From assembly GCF_020921035.1 (NCBI RefSeq), contig NC_063150.1, forward strand, positions 1,860,001 to 1,924,000: 64,000 nucleotides of DNA. Direction: 5' to 3'. A program made the translations under genes and the position numbers. Below the pieces are notes generated by a model, which ran no database searches, had not been told where the DNA came from, and worked only from the letters and a program-made list of their open reading frames with translations. Of the stretch, positions 1,629 through 61,545 are shown piece by piece (positions within the stretch are counted from its first letter, which is position 1; the number at the start of each line of letters is the position of its first letter). The DNA is from Rhodamnia argentea (Eukaryota; Streptophyta; Magnoliopsida; Myrtales; Myrtaceae).

Positions 1629-4600
1629 ATGGCGGGGAACGAATGGATAAACGGGTACTTGGAGGCGATACTGGACAGCGGCGGAGGGGGGTCGTCGGAG
1701 CAGGCCGTGCAGAAGGAGGTGAAGATGCGGGAGAGGGGGGACTTCAACCCGACCAAGTACTTCGTGGAGGAGGTGGTGACCGGCGTCGACGAGACCGACC
1801 TCCACCGGACGTGGATCAAGGTCGTCGCCACCCGCAGCTCCCGCGACCGCAGCTCCCGCCTGGAGAACATGTGCTGGCGGATCTGGCATCTCACCCGTAA
1901 GAAGAAGCAGGTGATATCCCGAGTCAGCTCTTTCGATGCTTCTGTTCTTTTTTCCCCGAGAATATCTGGTGCGTCCATTATGTGATCGTTGCGAGAGATA
2001 TTTCTGGCGCGTGTGATCGGCTTGTTTGATGGTGTTTTAAGCTTTTCGGGATAAGAGAAGACAGGTCTAGAGATTGAATCCTGATATTCTATCTTATGGT
2101 CCTTTTATGGTTGGATGGAAATATACCTAGTCCATTTAACTTGGTGATTGTTCCTATAAATATGTTTCATTAATGTTAACAGCTTGTTTCGCGACGTTGA
2201 GCTTTTTTCTGTCTGACTGTTGATTGTTTGAATTGGAGGACAGGTCAAGAATTCGAATCCCGACACCGTCTCTTTTAAATAAATTTATCATAGTTGGCCT
2301 TTGCCTTTTCGTTTTATTGTTGTGTCACTTCATCCTTAGGTTCATGTTTGATGTCTGGCTTGATCAATTGAGAAGGGGAACCTGTGAGATGTATGCATTG
2401 TCCTGGGTCCGTTCTTCTTACAGAATCATGGTTAGTGGTTACCTCACACACACATTGACGTGCAAATTCCATTCAGGAGTGTACATGCGCCTGTTAGCTT
2501 GGGCGACAGGCTATCTACATGTGAAGCTTGAATTTGTATTGATTCCTAAGTACCAAAAGTTTTCAGATGAGTGGGAGTCTCTGTTTGTGAGCTCTTACTG
2601 AAAGTCTTTGTTTGGAGTTGAGTGCCTATAATGCATGAGAAGCAAAAAGAAAACGAGGATTTCGTCGAGAAATGATCCAGTTATCTGAGGATTCTAGATT
2701 TAGGGGACACTTACAAGTAAGGAGGGGGGAAAAAGGAGAAATCAGAATAGGCGGATCTATATTTAGTATGGACCAGGAATATCATGCCAAACAGAGGTTT
2801 TTCGCTTCTATGAATTTCGTACTTTTAACACAAATTGACTGAGGTGTTTGTCCTATATATTCTTCTACTTGATTGGAGGAACTTGTGGCCGATCTGTTTA
2901 TTGGATAGCCTCAGATCTTTTCCATCAGCTGGTCAGTTATGGAGTGTCCATTTGGTACACTAGCCGATTGGCCAATTGTTCAATGATTCAGCACATTCTG
3001 TAGGAAGTGCAGTTCAAGTTGGAACTGCATCATAAATGAAAACAACCCCCAAGATGTCATGACTAGAACAGATGTCCGTGGTGCACATGGCGCCCACACG
3101 TTTCCAGCAGTGTCATTAATAATTTTGTTTACGTGCTTAGGCGTTTTGAGACTAACATGTATGTGTCTGTCATGAAAAACCCCGACATATTGCGATTCAG
3201 TTGAGTTTTATTTCTGAAGTAGCATTTCACACGAAACTGAGTTTTTGACTCAGTAACTCAGTAATCTTACCGATTTCCCAATTTTTCAGTTCTCTATAAA
3301 GCAGAGTAAAAATTATAGTTGTGTCATGCTTCTAGTCATAAGTTCAATACCCGGAAAACTAATCGACTCTGATGCATATGTGCTATCAACATTTTCCCAG
3401 CTCTGTCATTGATTGGTCTTCCTGAGTCATTTTTATTGTTGGGACATATTGCTCATTGGACAAACCTAGCATGCGTTACCTATTACAGAATATAAACCCG
3501 GCATATTGTAGATAGTGAAGGCTTTGAGTTCTTAAAGATACCAGTACTAAATGATGTCAAAGATTTCGCGCTCGGCTCTCTGTTTATCTGTTCTTGCATC
3601 TTTTCCCATGCTTTTGTATCTCTCAATAGAGCATGTGTGACCGACATTTTAAGCACTACTTTGTTCTCTGTATCTTGTGGTAGAGACCATTCATTGTTAC
3701 ATTGCTATTAGCTTTATCAAGGTGAAGCAATTGCCGACCCTGTATCTTCTTAGTTTTCCAACTGAAATTTTAAGGAGCCTTTGTCATCAGTTGGAATGGG
3801 AGGAGCTGCAAAGGCTGGCGAAACGGAGGTGGGAACGGGAACAAGGACGGAGGGATGCAACAGAAGACATGTCCGAGGACTTATCAGAAGGAGAGAAAGG
3901 GGACATCGTGGGAGAGTTGATGCTGAGTGAGACCCCGAGAAAGAAGTTTCAGAGAAATTTTTCCAATCTGGAAGTATGGTCAGATGACAAAAAGGAAAAG
4001 AAGCTTTACATTGTCCTAATAAGGTATAGTTTTTCTTTTTGGCTTAAGTGTTGTTTAGTGAACTTCTTGCTATAGTGTGTCTATGAGGGGATAAATATGG
4101 GGATTTTCAGCCGTTAGCTGGCGAGAGAGTGTAACTTTCAGCTTCTTGTATTTATGTTTTGGAAGTAATATTAGCTGAGACATACAACTTAAAGTTACCG
4201 TTAATGTTGTCAGGTATCTTATTTCATTTCCCTTCTGAAATTCTGCTGAAGTAGGTTAACCTTTTTTCATAATCAAAGAATACTATAGCATAATACTTTA
4301 ACTGAATTATACACCAGATATGCTGATCTAACAACAAGGCCATTTATCCTGAGTTCGTTAGGCTACTTGAAGGCAGAGGAATGAACAGTTTGGATGTCAT
4401 CCCATACACCTGAGTGTTTAAATTTTGAGCCTACTTATGAACTCCAAGATACTCTAGATCTTAGCATCGACCTTTTATCTATTGTCATGCAATCCGTCTG
4501 CATTCCTACGAATTGTGAACTCATCATTCACTCTGGAGCTATACTGATGATGTTCAACTCATTGATCCAACTTATTGTTCGGACCAGTTTGCATGGTTTG

Positions 4601-20974: not shown

Positions 20975-22217
20975 ATGTCACAACTATTCCGGATAAGGAA
21001 GACCATGTTTGCTTGTTAAAAAAATCATTATATAGGCTGAAACAGTTTCCTAAGCGATGGTATAAGCATTTTGATGGCTAGTCGGGACTATTTGAAAAGT
21101 TAGATGGATAGTTGTGTTTACTTTAAAAGATTGAATGATGGGTATTTGATATATCTGTTGCTATATGTTAATGATATGTTGATAGCAACTAAGAATATAT
21201 TTGACATTGATGTGTTGAAGAGGCAATTGAGCGCTGAATTTGAGATAAAAGAGTTAGGTGCTGCAACAAAAATTTTGGGTGTGGAGATTTTGCCGGATAG
21301 GACTGCGGGAGTATCACGTCTATTTCAAAAGAAATATATTAAGAAGATTGTAACACGTTTTAATATGCGATCGAGAAAGTACGTGAATACACCATTAGCA
21401 AAGCACTTTAAACTTTCGGTTAAGTTATCACCGCATACCGAGGAGGAGGAGGAGCATATGTCTCGTGTTCCTTATTCTAGTGCCGTTGGTAATATTATGT
21501 ATGCTATGATATGCACTATGCATGATATTTCACAAGCTATGAGTGTTATTAGTCGTTATATGAAATTTCCTAGTAAAACTCATTGGGAAGCTGTGAAATG
21601 AATCTTTAGAGATTTGAATGAGACAAATGACGTTGGTATAGCGTACCAAAGGGACATTAATGGATGTGAAACCACAGGTTATGTGGATTCAAATCATGCA
21701 TGTGACTTGGATGAGTGCATGTCTTTAGTAGGGTATATATTTACGCTTGCAAATGGTGCGATTAGTTGGAAGGTGTCTTTACAAGACTATGTTACCTTGT
21801 CTTCAATCGAGGCAGAGTATATGGTACTTACCTTTATAGCGAATGAGGCGATATGGCTAAAAAGTTTGTTCTTGGACTTTGAGTTAGAGCAGATAAGTGT
21901 TGATATACACTATGATAACCAAGATGCGATATATCCGGCGTATAATTCGGTTTATCACGAACGGACGAAATATATCGGCATTAGGTATCCCTTCATCCGA
22001 GATGTCTTAACGAAGGGTAAGGTTGCTGTGAAAAAAATTGCTACAGCAGAGAACCCAGCAGACATGATGACCAAGCATGTTCCTTTAGCAAAGTTTAAGC
22101 TCCGCTTGAGCACCATTGACATCTGCAGAGTGTGAGCGCCTGTCGAGGCATTGGGAGAGTATCATGGATGGTGAGCACTATTGACTTGGCTACAACTATC
22201 AAGCCAAGGTGGGGAAT
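20975..22217 (+). pseudogene. Decayed Copia retrotransposon: RT and RNase H remnants
   Basis: The 3' third of a Ty1/Copia pol, truncated at its 5' side. Frame pieces near 20985-21100 carry SLYRLKQ and RWYKHFD, interrupted by stops. The block 21104-21601 carries the reverse-transcriptase palm with YVNDML, where the usual YVDD has Asp replaced by Asn, then KKYI and the connection region. The block 21614-22135 is the RNase H region (GYVDSNHA, LSSIEAEYM, YHERTKYIGIRY, NPADMMTKHVPLAKF). Gag, protease and integrase are absent. Internal stops (for example at 21599) and the altered active site show it is dead. A purine tract just before 22218 fits a polypurine tract adjoining the 3' LTR. Confidence 0.85.
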
Positions 22218-30700: not shown

Positions 30701-33700
30701 GCCAATAAGGAAACATGTAATATACCTTTATGCCATATGGAATGCTCCATAGGGCCAATCTTCACAAAGACCACATAGGTCTACATCGGTGGTATAGTAA
30801 TAAGCTAAGTAGCACCAACACGCAACACAACACGACACGTTGACACGTCATTTCTAAAAAAAAGACAATTCCGACAAGTTGGGACACGTTGTATATCAAA
30901 TGTATATTTTTATATATGCATAATAAATAATCAGATATATATAAAAATATTAGCGGTGAGTTTTTTTTTCTTCTTACGTTAGAGATTCATGATTATTTTT
31001 TTTTCCCCGGTTAAGTATATTATTTTTGGGGTGGCTGGATATATGATTTAAGTATATATATATTTTGATAAATTTACATTTTGACGCTTAAGTTATTGAA
31101 CATGCTTAAAATTGACCCCATGCGTGTTGGGGTGCCGGAGTCGCGTGTCACTGTCGTGTCCGGAGCACTAACCACATGTTGGTATGTCGGAGAGTGTCGG
31201 ACACGACACGGAGGCCCGGGAGAGAGTCGGTGTTTCCTAGGTAATCAGGACATATTAGGGTAGTGTTCACTATGGATCGCCTCACTAAATAATGCGAGCA
31301 TAATGTTTGCTACATGTCCATTGGATTTGCTTGGAGCAAATAATGCTCACTTTTCATTAACCAGTTGAAGAGAACATCATAACCTCATTCCAAGCGGGGT
31401 TATAATTGAATCCTTGTAATCACAAAGCATCCTGTACCCTGTTCTGTGTGGCCGAGAATTGTGTTCATTATGTAGACTCGAAAGCATGCTCCACATTTCT
31501 ATACCACAGCATGTAATGACTTGCCGGTAAATTAGCCATTCTAGCTCATGCATAAATCTGCAATGTGTATAGGTGAAACTAAAGCAAGGACTCAAGACTG
31601 CAATGAGCATTTCAGGCGAGGGAAATGCGTATCTGCAAGTATGCTTGGAGAAGTTCTAAATGCTTTGCAAATGTACTGGTTGTATGTTTCATTTTCATAT
31701 AGGATCTCTCATTCGCTTGCCGAATGATTTTATCTTCAGGCAAGCCAATTCTGGAAGTTATACAAAGAAGACCAACTGTCTTGCTCTATTGTGATGAAAA
31801 CTTCTGTGGGCCTGGTGCATCTCCTTGCATGTTTACTTGAACCTTTCATGCCTTCATTTTCCATTGAGGTAACTAAGTTCTCCTACAGTTAGACGAGCCA
31901 TGGATTTTGATAACGATTTTTGCATGGGGGAGGAACCATGTTTCCTTGGCTCTTATTGAAGGTGTTTCTGCATTCTGTCTGCTGGTGCTTCAGGTATTTA
32001 AGCAGCTAAATTTACCTCCTGAAACACAAGCTTCACTTCGAGATGAAAATGGGGAGATCGAGAGAGCTAGAAGACCTTGGGAGTTTATACCTGCTGGTCA
32101 CAAGATTGGGGCACCAGAGCCTTTGTTTAAGGAATTGGTACATGTTTGAGCCTCGCACATCCATTAAGACAAATAAAAATAGATGGAAAAATTGTAACCT
32201 GTCTTAATTACTCTAAAATTTTCATTTTTTGGAGGCATCAATAATCAGTCAAGCTTAATATTTGAAATTTTTTGTTCTCTAGAGAGATGAAGAAATGGAA
32301 TTCTATCGTAAAAAGTTTGCTGGAAGTCAAGCAGATAGAATTTTGAGAGCAGAAGCTGAAGCTGAGAAGGCGGCTGAGCAATTGCGAAAGACTAAATTAT
32401 CAGGTGGAGCATAGTTGCATTTTCTCTTCTTAGGTTTGCTTGTGTTTTGTCTATAGGCCATGTGATAGATAAAGAAAGAATGTCCTGGTTATTCGGTAAT
32501 CGTAACATGCCTTCCATGGCATGTAAGTATGGATGTAAGAACCATTTCTATTGATAATTCTGCCTCACCCGTGTGAAGAATAATATAAAGTCCTACTTCA
32601 ATCCCATAAAATGTGTCATGCATAAAAAGGAAGCAAAGTACAATACAAAGATATATATTCTTTAGAGTTCTTCAATTGGTCGTTCTCTTATAGTTCCTGC
32701 CCACAGTGTATTATTTCATCAGACATATACCAAAACCTTTGAAATTTTCAACCTTAATATCTAGACAAAATTCCATGAGAAATCATACCTAACATCAACA
32801 TGAACTGTAATATTCTGATGGAATGGAGTGGACAAGTCGTTTCCTAATCTTTTTCTCTCTCACACACTCATTTAATCTTTTACAGTTATAATGTTTTATC
32901 TACTCATTACTTATTTTCTGATCTATTAGAATTGTACTACTTATAAGTTGTTATTTGAAAGGGATGTGATAGTAACATTTACGAAGAAAAGACAGCCCTT
33001 CGATTGTAATTATGAAATCATTGAATGAACAGGTTTTCTGCAAGATGTAGACTCAGTAGATAATAAATGTATATTCAGGGATGTGATAGCAACATTTACA
33101 AATAAAAGATAACCCTTCGATTTTACTTATCAAATCATCTCATGAATTATCTCATGAATAGTAGGTTTTATGCAAGATGTAGACTCAGCATATAATAAAT
33201 GTAATTTCAGTAGTCAAATAAGTATGTATATATCTTCAATTTTATATCCTCAGAATGCATTGACCCAAATTCTTGTAAAAAAAGAGAAAGCAAGATGTGA
33301 ACCCTAACCCTTTTTCCCTTAATTTTGTTTACTTTTGTTAACCTACGTACTATTCATGAAATTGCTTTTAAGATTGTGATTTTCTTTAAAAGTATAAGGA
33401 TTGCAATGAGTCAAGAACTAAAGAACTAAAGAACTAACAAAATATGATTAAACAAAATTTAGACGTGTAATTAGATACAGTAGAAAGAAAACATACATCA
33501 TTCTGCAATCATATCTACATCAAAATCCCCAGTAATGGTCAAGTTCAACCCAGCCAGGATAAAGGTCATGCAGAGAGCAATTGACAAATGAAGGTAACAA
33601 TAATAAAATGAAACAGGTCAATTTGAAGCATATTATGTCAGGAACATGCATACGAATATACTACTGTGGTGCAGCTGACAGACCAAACAACTTGTCTGTG

Positions 33701-56047: not shown

Positions 56048-58797
56048 TCAGAAAATTAGCCAAATACATAAGATTGCCAAGCCAGCGGCGGCTGAACATC
56101 GCCGGGAGGCTTCCAACGGTTTCGCGGCGACGGAAGGAGTCCCTCCCGCGTACGGCACTCCTCCTACCGTGCCGCCATAGCTCGTGGGAGGAGAGAAGAT
56201 GGGTATTGTCGGCGTGTTCGGCAGGGTGGTGGTCGGCGAAGTCGTGGCGGGCGTCGTACCCGTGGTCCCTCCTGCTGTGCTGAAGATTTTTCCAAAGGAG
56301 AGAATTAGACTAAACCAAAACTCCTCAGCTAGAATTTCTTTTGGACCCCCAATCTTCTAATTCTAGCTAGAAATTGAAATGTATGCAAGTCAAAATATAG
56401 AGACTGAAGGATTGGATCACATATATAGTTTGCAATATGCATAAATCAAATGAAAATGAAAGTCATCAAACCCTAATGTTGACTAACTTGTCCTTTTGGG
56501 CTGCTTTTCCTATTTGAATCTTGAGGCCAGAAGAATAAAAGCAAAGCTTAGCTTCCCAGTGAGGTCATTCCCACTTCTGCAAGATGCCCTTTTTTTTTTA
56601 ATTTAATTTTATTTTGTTTTATTATTTTATTTCATTTTACTTTTTTTGGGCAATTGGGGTTCAAAGTGGGAGATAGGACCACCTCCAAAGAGAATGCTAT
56701 ACCCTTTTTTTATTTTTTTCTAATGCTTTCAATTTCTTATTGACTCAAATTCACAGCTTTCCTTTTACAATTCTTAATTATAACCATAATTTCATTTCAA
56801 TGTTGATCGCACAAAAATTTTCCATGGATGTATCACACAAATCAACGGACTTTTCGCATAAACTCATAACAGCATATCTCTTCGGACGAATTGTTAAATC
56901 TATATTTTTAACCAGTCCGACAATACGGGAAAAAAAAATCAAGCTGATTAAATATAAGTCTAGACTTAAGAAATAAAACATATGAATTATTCAAATCATA
57001 TACTTTACGCAAAGTGTGTTTAAGAGAAAAAAATCAAATTGCATATTGGTGTACAAGCTCTTTTGAAAAATGGGAGTACGAACCTCAGAGCCGGACCTTG
57101 AACGTCACACCAGCTTAGGAAAAGCCAAAAGGAAAAATTGGACATAGGACATTGGGACGAGGAGTATACATTGGACATGGAAATCCACGTCAGCTGGTCA
57201 AAGCATATGACCGGACCCCCTGATGTCAAGGGCCCCACATGCCACCTTAGTACTTAGCAAAAGATCATCGTTAATCGCTACGTTCCAACTTCAAACAAAA
57301 GACTGTCCCCAGCTGAATAAACATATATCCGAAATAAATCTTAACCGAACCATTTTAATAATATTATGCCTCATTTGTTTCGTGAAAAATGAATAATTTA
57401 AAAATTATTTTATTTAAACTGATCAATTATATATCTTAAGAAACCGAAGGGACGGAAAATATTTTCATCATCCACGGAAATATTTTGACATAATTATTGA
57501 GAATAAAGAAATTTTTTTTACATAAACTAATAATTTAAGCGGAACAAGCGATCATTTTTAGCAAAACGTTGATCTAATCATTCATTTTTTGCGAAATAAA
57601 CGGATTCTTAGAAAAGATTAATTGTCATTAGACACATCTCCATTATTAAGCTAAAAGTGGAATTTGTCTCGCTTATTCATCATTCTCTACTAGGAATAAA
57701 AAGAAGGAATTAAGAGTACTATCATAATTAAACATATTCTTAGAAGTCAAAAGAACTGCTCGATTTTTGGTTCAAAAGATGATCTACCCATAGGAGCTAG
57801 AAGGACAACTCATTTTGTCGGGCTTAATTACAATGCAATCACACGCCTCCTTTGAAATTCGGTACAAAATTAAGCGAGAATCGAGATGAAACGAACAACT
57901 ACACAACCATACTGAATGAGATAGATACCAAGATATCAAGCGAATGACCTTAGTTACAATCACTTTCTTATTTCGAGTCCCATTTTCTAGTTGATCATAA
58001 AGACAAATCCATCTTTTCTCAAAGACACTCGCGATGAATATCGTAGTCACCCCAATAAAAAAAATTTCAAGAAAGTCATGTCCAAAAAATTATGACGATC
58101 GGCAAGGTATAGCTAATATCGCACTTGAAATACGTACACAAAATACCTTTCTAGGTTTAAAAATACTTTGACAGAACCGGTTGAACGCTCTAAAAACATA
58201 AATAATTGAACAAAAAAGAAAGGAAAAAAAAAGAAAAAAGGAAAAAGAAAAAGAGAGATGATATACGATCATCTCGATATATCCACAAAAAGCCGAAAAA
58301 AGAAATCGAGAAATTTGAAAGAAAGACGCAAACCGAGAAATTTGTCGGAACACCGACCAACCTCGTCACCCCCGCCTCCCAAGATCTAACCATAAACCAC
58401 CCTTAAATAATTAGTCCCCTTTATTAAGTAACCCCCTATTATTTAATCTAAGTAAATACTTTACGTTATGTAATGGAAGTGAAAATCTTAGACCCTAGTA
58501 TTACTTAAAAACCCTAACAACTGGTTAGAAAAGACAAAACGCGAGATGATATCATGCACGAGAACTCCAACGGTCCCGCACGCCATTCATGCACGACGAC
58601 ACGTGTGTGATCTCCCCTGCGGGAACTACTGAACATTCCGTCACGCTCGCGTCCAATGAAGGGAAATGAATCGATTCAAGTTGCTCTGGCTTGTCCATTT
58701 CTAAACTATTTGAGAATATTGACAGCACCATTGCAGAAAAGAAAAGTAAAAAGGAAAAGGAAAACAAGAAGCTACACAGAGAGAGATGCAGGAGATG

Positions 58798-58835
<38 letters not shown>

Positions 58836-58937
58836 CCTCATAGACGATGGATACACGCACGATCCGTAACCTACGACAATCATGAAGAAGAATGGTGATG
58901 CATGATCTAACTGGGCATGGAGAAAAAGTGAGTTTGA

Positions 58938-58991
<54 letters not shown>

Positions 58992-59361
58992 GGAGGGAGA
59001 ACAGACTGGGGTCGGAGGCGGCGACGGTGGCAGTGCCGGCGAAGTCGCAGCTGCCGGGGGCCATGGCCTTGCGCTGGTAGAAGCTGTTGTAGGCGTAGGC
59101 GGCGTGAGCTTGCACCGAGTTCGGCAGGTAACACAGGCCGCTCGACTGTATAGGGGAGCAGTCCGCGCCGGACCCGCACGCGTAGTCGAGACCTCTCTGG
59201 AGCGCCTCCTCGCTCGCGTCGCTCCGGACAACGCACCACGTGGCGGCCCTCGCGGGGGTTGCCGCCTCGGAGAGGAGAAGAAGGAGGAGGAGGAGGAAGA
59301 GGAGGGGGAGCGACGGCGAGGGGTGAGAGGACGGCGCTGGCGGTGGCCGTGGTGGAGCCAT
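56048..59361 (-). CDS. X8-domain plasmodesmata callose-binding protein (PDCB-like)
   Basis: Likely binds callose at the neck of plasmodesmata, where PDCBs influence cell-to-cell movement. Three exons on the minus strand: 59361-59007, 58870-58837 (only 34 nt) and 56279-56048; 621 nt, 206 aa. Residues 1-40 form a signal peptide with a poly-Leu core. The X8 (CBM43) domain, about 41-126, has six cysteines (C43, C62, C68, C77, C105, C123) and the ATWCVV and YGSCVYPSS motifs. Next comes a Thr/Pro-rich spacer (STAGGTTGTTPATTSPTTT) and a hydrophobic C-tail, AAAGLAILCIWLIF, fitting a GPI anchor. The exon 3 call rests on the exact phase join M|STAGG. Intron 2 is 2.56 kb. A GA microsatellite crowds the start of each intron. 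Confidence 0.9.
57368..57607. mobile_element. Small MITE (GGCTCCGTTTGTTT family), copy 2, in X8-gene intron 2
   Basis: Left end GCCTCATTTGTTTCGTG and inward-read right end AAGAATCCGTTTATTTCGC resemble the copy at 29625-29859. About 240 bp, non-coding. Confidence 0.6.
58801..58830. repeat. (AG)15 microsatellite next to an X8-gene donor
   Basis: Perfect AG run on the + strand. On the gene strand it is (CT)15, starting right after the intron 2 donor GTATGT. Confidence 0.9.
58941..58988. repeat. (AG)24 microsatellite in X8-gene intron 1
   Basis: 48 bp perfect run. It fills over a third of the 136-bp intron 1 and lies 18 bases from its donor. Confidence 0.9.
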
Positions 59362-59651
59362 GGAGGCGGGGGCGGAGTTATAGTGGGAAGTGAGTGGTGC
59401 GGCGAGGTGGAGGCTCTAGGCTTTTAGTTAGTAAAGGAAGAGAGAGACCGACTTTTGCTCTGTTGATACATTTTTTCTTTTTCTTCTTCTTTTTTCTTTG
59501 TCGGATGTTCGTAGAGTATCCTTCTTCTTCTCTTTTGTTTTTCGACTTTGAAGGAGCTGAATCTCATTTGCAAGGCTTCTTTTAACCTTTTGACGGCGGC
59601 CCAATGGGCTCGCTCAAGCCCGTTTTGTTTCAACTAGGATAGTTTTCCTTA

Positions 59652-60236: not shown

Positions 60237-60622
60237 TAATGACACAAAATGGTTTTTGAACTTGGGCTCGGCATGTAATATGATCATTGAACTTTTAATT
60301 TATTCAATATGGTCCTTAAACTTTGGCATAATGTTCAATACGGTTTCTCAATTTTTAATTTGTTCAATATAGTATTTGAACTTTTAATACATGTTCAATA
60401 TCGTTCATGAACTTTTAATTTGTTCAATATGATATATTGGCTTCTAGTACACGTTCGGTCTAATGATTTCATTGATTTAAGAGCGAGGATAATATTAAAT
60501 ATATTAAATCGAATATGTACCAAAAGTTCATAGACTATATATTGAATAAATTAAAAATTTAAGAATCACGTTGCATATTAAGTTAATATTGCATAAATTA
60601 AAAGTTTAGGAACAGGTCATAA
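60237..60622. mobile_element. Short AT-rich TIR element (TGAACTTT family), copy 2
   Basis: Begins AATGACACAAAATGG, followed by TTGAACTT, and repeats TTCAATATGGTCC-type phrases in both orientations, like 15690-16019. The right border (near ATTATGACCTGTTCC read inward) is approximate. It lies about 300 bp before the SERF-like start codon. Confidence 0.55.
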
Positions 60623-60930
60623 TCACGATCCTTAATTGTGTGTGTGGCGCCCCCCACCTGGGCCATAGACTAAGGTCCAGAGTTGGGAATTGAAAGCTCC
60701 TTCAGTCTTTGAGTGGAGGACAACGGGCAAACGCGAAAGTAAACCGTTGACTATTGGTGAGCGAGGGGGGGCAATTCCGGCATTTCACCCCCAAGTTCTT
60801 GACGGAGAGAATATAAACACGCACGGGCCCAGGAAATCGCCCACCGCCCGCAGCCACATCTCGCCAGCTGATTGCTGCAAGTTTCTTCCTTTTAGCGCGA
60901 CGACCTTGTCGCTCTCCTCCTGCTTCCATC

Positions 60931-61545
60931 ATGACTCATATCCTTCGATTTCGTCGTTTTTTTTTTTGTTCTTTTGTGCAGTTTGACGTGGATTAATTTG
61001 CTCGTAGCGTTCGATTTCGATGCTCGCCTTGCCTCGGGATTCGATTGTGCTTTTGCTCTTTGCTTCGTTTTGCTCGCTTAATTTCGAAAAAGGGTGCGAA
61101 AGAATCTGTGGGTTCTTCTGTTTTTTCCTTGATTCTTGAGTTGATGCACGCGGTAACCAGAGAGATCGCGATCGAGAGAGAGCTCAGGCACGAGGTGGCA
61201 AGAAGGGTACCAAAGACGACGGATTGACTCCTGAGCAGCGCCGCGAAAGGTCGGGTCTTTTTTTTTTGGATCTCGATTAGGGTTTTAGCGATGGTAATTT
61301 TGGAAATCCCTGCTTTTTCTCTTTGAATTGTGGAGGCTTTTTTGTTTTTCCTTTGAAAATGATGTGGCGGCTCTTGGTTTTCCTTATTGATGATGTTCGA
61401 TGTGGGTTTCGTGGTGAAATTAATCGGGGGTTGTTTGATCGAATCAATTAGGGATGCGAAGGCTTTGCAAGAGAAGGCTGCAAAGAAGGCGGCCCAGGGG
61501 GCATCCAGCGGGGATGCCGGAGGTAAAAGCGGCAACAAAAAATAA
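60931..61545 (+). CDS. SERF/4F5-like small EDRK-rich protein with an AT-AC intron
   Basis: 66-aa basic, charged protein beginning MTRGNQRDRDRERAQ, the invariant start of the 4F5/SERF family, whose animal members influence protein aggregation; the plant role is poorly known. Three exons: 60931-60937, 61150-61249 and 61452-61545, total 201 nt. Exon 1 contributes only ATGACTC. The 212-nt intron 1 begins ATATCCTT and ends GCAC, with a TTCCTTGAT branch-site match at 61125-61133, so it is a U12-type AT-AC intron. No GT-AG alternative restores the family start: the exon 2 frame has a TGA at 61137 and no upstream ATG. The middle (DDGLTPEQRRERDAKALQEK) and the Ala/Lys-rich, Gly/Ser tail ending in NKK fit the family. 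Intron 2 is ordinary GT-AG. Confidence 0.92.

Follow-up and report, generated by a model that had tools for sequence, protein, structure and literature searches.

The SERF-like gene described here is, with high confidence, a three-exon plant gene whose first intron would be a phase 1 U12-type AT-AC intron, so placed that the output of SERF protein would depend on splicing by the minor spliceosome. The gene lies in a stretch of 64 kb (G000:C1:1860001-1924000), referred to throughout as the window, which belongs to a genome of 346.7 Mb in 74 contigs. The features of the gene are collected in Table 1. The letters and coordinates put forward in the original prediction for exon 1, the 5' splice site, the branch point sequence, the AC end of intron 1 and the start of exon 2 all agree with the sequence of the window.

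Table 1. Predicted features of the SERF-like gene and its first intron, in window coordinates
Feature	Position	Strand	Description
TATA box-like TATAAA	60812..60817	+	putative promoter element
SERF-like gene	60931-61545	+	three coding exons
Exon 1, coding part ATGACTC	60931..60937	+	Met, Thr and first base of an Arg codon; intron phase 1
Intron 1	60938..61149	+	212 nt; AT-AC; U12-type by sequence
5' splice site, U12-type, ATATCCTTC	60938..60946	+	first 12 intron bases the same in the paralogue
Branch point sequence TTCCTTGAT	61125..61133	+	9/9 against TTCCTTRAY; branch A at 61132
3' splice site AC	61148..61149	+	intron ends CAC; 8 of the 14 preceding nt are pyrimidines
Exon 2	61150..61249	+	100 nt; first letters GCGGTAACC; purine-rich start, GCGGTAACCAGAGAGATCGCGATCGAGAGAGAG
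Intron 2	61250..61451	+	202 nt; GT-AG; the paralogue has a GT-AG intron of 918 nt at this point
Exon 3	61452..61545	+	encodes the last part of the 66-aa SERF-like protein; stop codon TAA

Joining the three exons gives MTRGNQRDRDRERAQARGGKKGTKDDGLTPEQRRERDAKALQEKAAKKAAQGASSGDAGGKSGNKK, a protein of 66 residues that matches the Pfam family SERF-like_N (PF04419) with an E-value of 2.1e-10 and a score of 41.8 bits against a cut-off of 22.3, with residue 1 of the protein aligned onto position 1 of the profile. The score falls to 37.4 bits for a fragment comprising residues 3-36, indicating that the residues supplied by exon 1, two in number, are part of what the Pfam profile itself demands. Human SERF1 and SERF2 chains also align to the window protein from residue 1, albeit weakly (E 0.0034 and 0.0054, respectively). 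Human SERF2 starts with MTRGNQRE and SERF1 with MARGNQR, and the window copy shares the N-terminal MTRGNQR. Downstream of the TATAAA element the next ATG is the one at 60931, and the ATGs within 60780-61260 are those at 60931, 61020 and 61144. SERF proteins are described in published abstracts as modifiers of amyloid formation in animals; judging from the few papers available, the role of SERF in plants appears to be little known. A pattern search for SERF in viral contigs and genome contigs returned 74 and 244 matches, respectively, none of which was confirmed.

Splice signals of intron 1 and their chance level

As judged from its sequence, intron 1 is a genuine U12-type AT-AC intron. This reading, already proposed in the original prediction, is borne out by the full set of motifs and by an old SERF duplicate that carries an intron with the same position, phase, ends and 5' splice site. 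The octamer ATATCCTT at the 5' splice site matches the consensus at all eight positions in both copies of the gene, and in both the intron follows the first base of the Arg codon (phase 1). Between the branch A and the final base of the intron the distance is 17 nt, as had been given correctly, which is longer than the reported optimum of 11-13 nt for U12-type introns (PMC3584512). The branch site is separated from exon 2 by TCTTGAGTTGATGCAC, with no distinct polypyrimidine tract before the AC, and a pyrimidine-rich stretch is found further 5', around the branch site.

In order to judge these signals against chance, a motif set was defined as ATATCCTT, followed 60-600 nt later by TTCCTTRAY and 7-19 nt after that by AC, and counts were compared with those from 200 dinucleotide shuffles. 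There is one occurrence of the full set in the 64 kb, both strands included, compared with 0.03 expected per shuffled window, a figure that precedes any demand for an in-phase position at the start of SERF. Taken singly, the motifs are near chance, with ATATCCTT seen twice (3.3 expected) and TTCCTTRAY three times (4.6 expected). As the single motifs are no rarer than chance, the weight rests on their combination and placement. A looser match to the motifs is found at 33244-33342, and such matches number two in the window, with 2.6 expected.

Within intron 1, a T-rich stretch ending in GTGCAG (60956-60981) resembles a U2-type 3' splice site; its use with a donor further upstream would cut out exon 1 together with the start codon.

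A sister SERF gene with the same intron

Searching the whole genome in six frames with the 66-residue protein as query, a method that gives minimum counts where a family is large, yielded three matches. Two are the main exons of the window gene, and the third lies on another contig (G000:C7:25071650-25071757), at the locus of a paralogue (L004). In L004, ATGACTC at 3378-3384 is followed by an intron 1 of 267 nt (3385-3651) that opens with ATATCCTTCGAT and closes with GAAC, after which the coding sequence resumes with GCGGTAACCAGAGAG. The join ATGACTC/ATATCCTTCGAT...AC/GCGGTAACC is thus common to both copies in structure and in phase. The paralogue encodes a 71-residue SERF protein that scores 44.3 bits against PF04419 (cut-off 22.3) and that begins at residue 1 when aligned to the human SERF2 and SERF1 chains.

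The first 12 bases of intron 1 are identical between the two copies (12/12) and the AC end is kept. With those 12 bases and the last 14 omitted, the interiors of the two introns align no better than shuffled sequence, the observed score being reached by 167 of 300 shuffles. The branch-like sequence of the paralogue, TGACTTAAC, agrees with TTCCTTRAY at 7/9 positions and places its A 12 nt from the intron end, and a second match of 7/9 lies 49 nt from the end. An in-frame stop codon stands just 5' of exon 2 in both copies, at 61137 in the window and at L004:3642. The identity at the start of the intron runs past the eight-base donor through CGAT at +9 to +12 (60946-60949; L004:3393-3396), the rest of the intron having diverged.

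At the protein level 50 of the 66 aligned residues agree between the copies, and 33 of the 66 third codon positions differ. The corresponding estimates of dN 0.145 and dS 1.81, obtained by the Nei-Gojobori method and of limited precision given the shortness of the gene, indicate purifying selection on the SERF copies. The presence of both introns in both copies argues that the duplication did not proceed by retroposition. As the copies share descent, their common intron is evidence of conservation, not of independent origins. A comparison of 84 kb with 48 kb around the two genes revealed no shared neighbors, its five hits consisting of one SERF exon and four hits at two short repeat-like places. 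The leader of the paralogue has a likely GT-AG intron in its 5' UTR (L004:3228-3331, CAG/GTCAGC to CCTCAG/GG), and this likely intron holds an ATG with a TGA as the very next codon (L004:3298-3303).

Alternative starts and splice joins

Gene models were enumerated with an ATG from 59900 on and a single intron, no shorter than about 60 nt, that ends either at 61149 or at an AG acceptor no further than 61151. When any donor is allowed, the open models number 1003, and two of them yield MTRGNQR: the one with the AT-AC intron 1, and one that uses an AA donor at 60246 with an ATG at 60239. None of the 92 models with a GT or GC donor in this enumeration gives MTRGNQR or M-any-RGNQR. The original prediction had held that MTRGNQR is obtained only through the AT-AC join; within this enumeration that is very nearly so, the AA-donor model being the one exception.

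Three other ways of starting the protein were rejected. The ATG at 61144 stands in another frame than SERF, as had been predicted, and opens MHAVTREI..., a product that matches nothing in Pfam even at a threshold of E 1. Read-through in frame from upstream meets the stop at 61137, just 5' of exon 2, and the ATG at 61020, which is in the SERF frame, runs into the same stop.

Of the competing accounts of the intron itself, the one that retains most weight, at a low probability, is that the AG at 61140 frequently serves as the end of a U12-type intron (AT-AG), by which three residues would be added to give MTLDARGNQR. Splicing to this AG, 8 nt away from the branch A, would leave the frame intact, and the choice of 3' splice site in U12-type introns is reported to be error-prone (PMC3584512). 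Against this, AT-AG combinations are reported as disfavored in the same paper, the nearest AG after the branch in the paralogue breaks the frame where AC keeps it, and the Pfam match and the human SERF proteins start at residue 1 without an insertion of the MTLDARGNQR type.

Slightly less probable still is that the N-terminus comes from a start exon further upstream, joined by a GT-AG (U2-type) intron, the AT-AC motifs being incidental, which is a case that the original prediction had named among those that would contradict it. The searched stretch does hold 46 open models combining a GT/GC donor with an AG acceptor, and the AG at 61140, which an upstream GT-AG intron could use, follows a run of pyrimidines (11 of 14 nt and 23 of 30 nt). 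Weak donors also appear to be tolerated in this gene, as the accepted donor of intron 2 scores only 1.06 under the weights that were used for all U2 donor scores. On the same scale, however, the best GT donor score is -0.1, compared with a median of -3.5 and a 90th percentile of 0.8 for GTs in the window, and it comes from 60252, upstream of the TATA-like box. The failure of all 92 GT/GC models (one intron, starts from 59900) to give the SERF N-terminus and the retention of AT-AC ends in the paralogue led us to reject an upstream GT-AG start exon.

An equally small probability attaches to the locus being a pseudogene or an unexpressed copy, in which case the intron would be without consequence. 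A second SERF gene in the genome would allow such a reading. The frame, however, is open over three exons, the dN and dS estimates point the other way, and the splice signals have been retained though the interior of intron 1 has diverged between the copies. Least probable of all, to the point of being negligible, is removal of the AT-AC termini by the major spliceosome: U2-type AT-AC introns do exist, as in SCN4A intron 21, but those of sodium channels are said to carry G at +5 (PMC2831892), whereas intron 1 has C at +5 within an exact ATATCCTT, together with an exact U12 branch motif.

Probable dependence of SERF output on minor splicing

In U12-type introns, U11 and U6atac read the 5' splice site and U12 reads the branch site. 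For a U12-type AT-AC intron 1 this would mean that U11, and then U6atac, pair with AUAUCCUU, that U12 pairs with UUCCUUGAU, and that the minor spliceosome joins ATGACTC to GCGGTAACC. The genome contains three U6atac matches over the Rfam cut-off, the best of which (94.9 bits) is on contig C3. All three align along the full length of the model; the match of the third (57.2 bits) is poor toward the 3' end. In both of the better copies the GAAAGGAGAGA stretch is intact, and the AAGGA of U6atac can pair with the UCCUU of the intron 1 5' splice site. A search of 14 control genomes yielded no U6atac match, which says little since these genomes are not known to include any eukaryote. In the third copy (L013, G000:C8:21992287-21992412) the 5' part is mostly kept and the 3' stem and T-run match poorly, and this copy may be a pseudogene. 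An Rfam search of the 64-kb window itself gave no matches.

If intron 1 were retained, the RNA would be read for 21 codons from the ATG at 60931 to a stop at 60994. Each of the two SERF proteins has a single methionine, in exon 1. As the stop at 61137 closes the SERF frame and no later in-frame methionine follows, unspliced RNA would make no SERF, and the output of the window gene would thus depend wholly on minor splicing. We still infer this dependence, as the original prediction did, now on the firmer ground of that missing methionine and of U6atac genes in the genome. Given the same intron in the sister copy, both copies probably need the minor spliceosome for any protein, and the SERF output of the paralogue is probably likewise wholly dependent on it. 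The purine upstream of the branch A is G in the window copy (17 nt to the intron end) and A in the paralogue (12 nt to the end, with a poorer motif overall).

A broader proposal is that all SERF of this plant is gated by the minor spliceosome, with an AT-AC intron, placed directly after codon 2, that is older than the gene duplication and perhaps older than plants, and with SERF supply following U6atac/U12 activity in an on/off manner; the lack of a second methionine would make such a gate total, not partial. We regard this as possible but doubtful. The slowness of minor splicing has been suggested to hold back expression (PMC2426677, PMC3584512), and removal of the SERF intron may likewise be slow and may serve regulation. 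A minor-class intron that precedes almost all of the coding sequence, and that has been kept since an old duplication, offers a clean test of protein supply by minor splicing. An annotation restricted to GT-AG introns would get the SERF gene wrong.

Relation to known U12-type introns

SERF intron 1 is typical of a known class and notable for where it lies, the gene itself being ordinary and conserved, and the case leaves the understanding of U12 introns unchanged. According to PMC7367187, AT-AC introns make up 23, 26, 13 and 22% of the U12 introns of soybean, Arabidopsis, maize and rice, respectively; for Arabidopsis, PMC5932401 cites a value of 4.8% from a count based on transcriptomes. A 5' bias is reported for U12 introns, 114 of 182 in Arabidopsis lying in the 5' half of genes (PMC2426677); among 290 streptophyte species the bias reaches significance in 112 (PMC10639083). 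The reported bias of U12 introns away from phase 0 is a tendency and not a requirement (PMC10639083, PMC7367187). The 20 positions of U12 introns shared by human and Arabidopsis (Basu et al. 2008; PMC2426677) are described as 5'-biased and conserved, as is the SERF intron.

The closest plant parallel is intron 4 of CBP20, which, like SERF intron 1, has AT-AC ends and a U12 branch site in an ordinary conserved gene, and which is reported from all ten land plant species compared in PMC5932401. The CBP20 intron lies mid-gene between two parts of the protein, whereas SERF intron 1 interrupts the coding sequence after 7 nt, so that its retention would remove nearly the whole protein, compared with a tail in CBP20. 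As reported in PMC5932401, a plant CBP20 U12 minigene was spliced correctly but poorly, and one factor named for splicing efficiency is that the upstream of the branch-site purines be an A.

Among SERF genes, Arabidopsis AT3G24100 (Bia) is described as encoding a SERF-family protein from which an extracellular peptide, detected by mass spectrometry, is derived (PMC6460963). Like the plant SERF gene, mouse Serf2 is made up of three exons (PMC8012326), a likeness that is no more than suggestive. Among the matches listed in our literature search, no paper linked SERF to a U12 intron; PMC3793868 mentions both SERF and U12-type introns, and in its relevant passages SERF1 appears only as a neighbor of SMN1, with no link to a minor intron. 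In PMC4892727, u11/u12-31k, u11-48k and u11/u12-65k mutant plants served to study other U12 introns, and the genes it names do not include SERF. As intron lists sit in supplements, which lay outside the search, the SERF intron may well be catalogued already.

Other features of the window

The other genes recognized in the window are a piece of a sucrose-synthase-type glycosyltransferase, a gene with an X8 domain, a ceramidase and a piece of a copia-type reverse transcriptase. Taken with the form of the SERF protein, this gene content would suit a flowering plant. Retrotransposon pieces occupy 21104-22135, with an RVT_2 match at 21104-21598 (E 1e-15); they are presumably of the copia type, a label that we take from the domain and the reading frame. 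The X8-domain gene (58552-59427, minus strand, E 6.3e-21) adjoins the SERF gene, and a long CT/GA simple repeat directly follows its X8 part.
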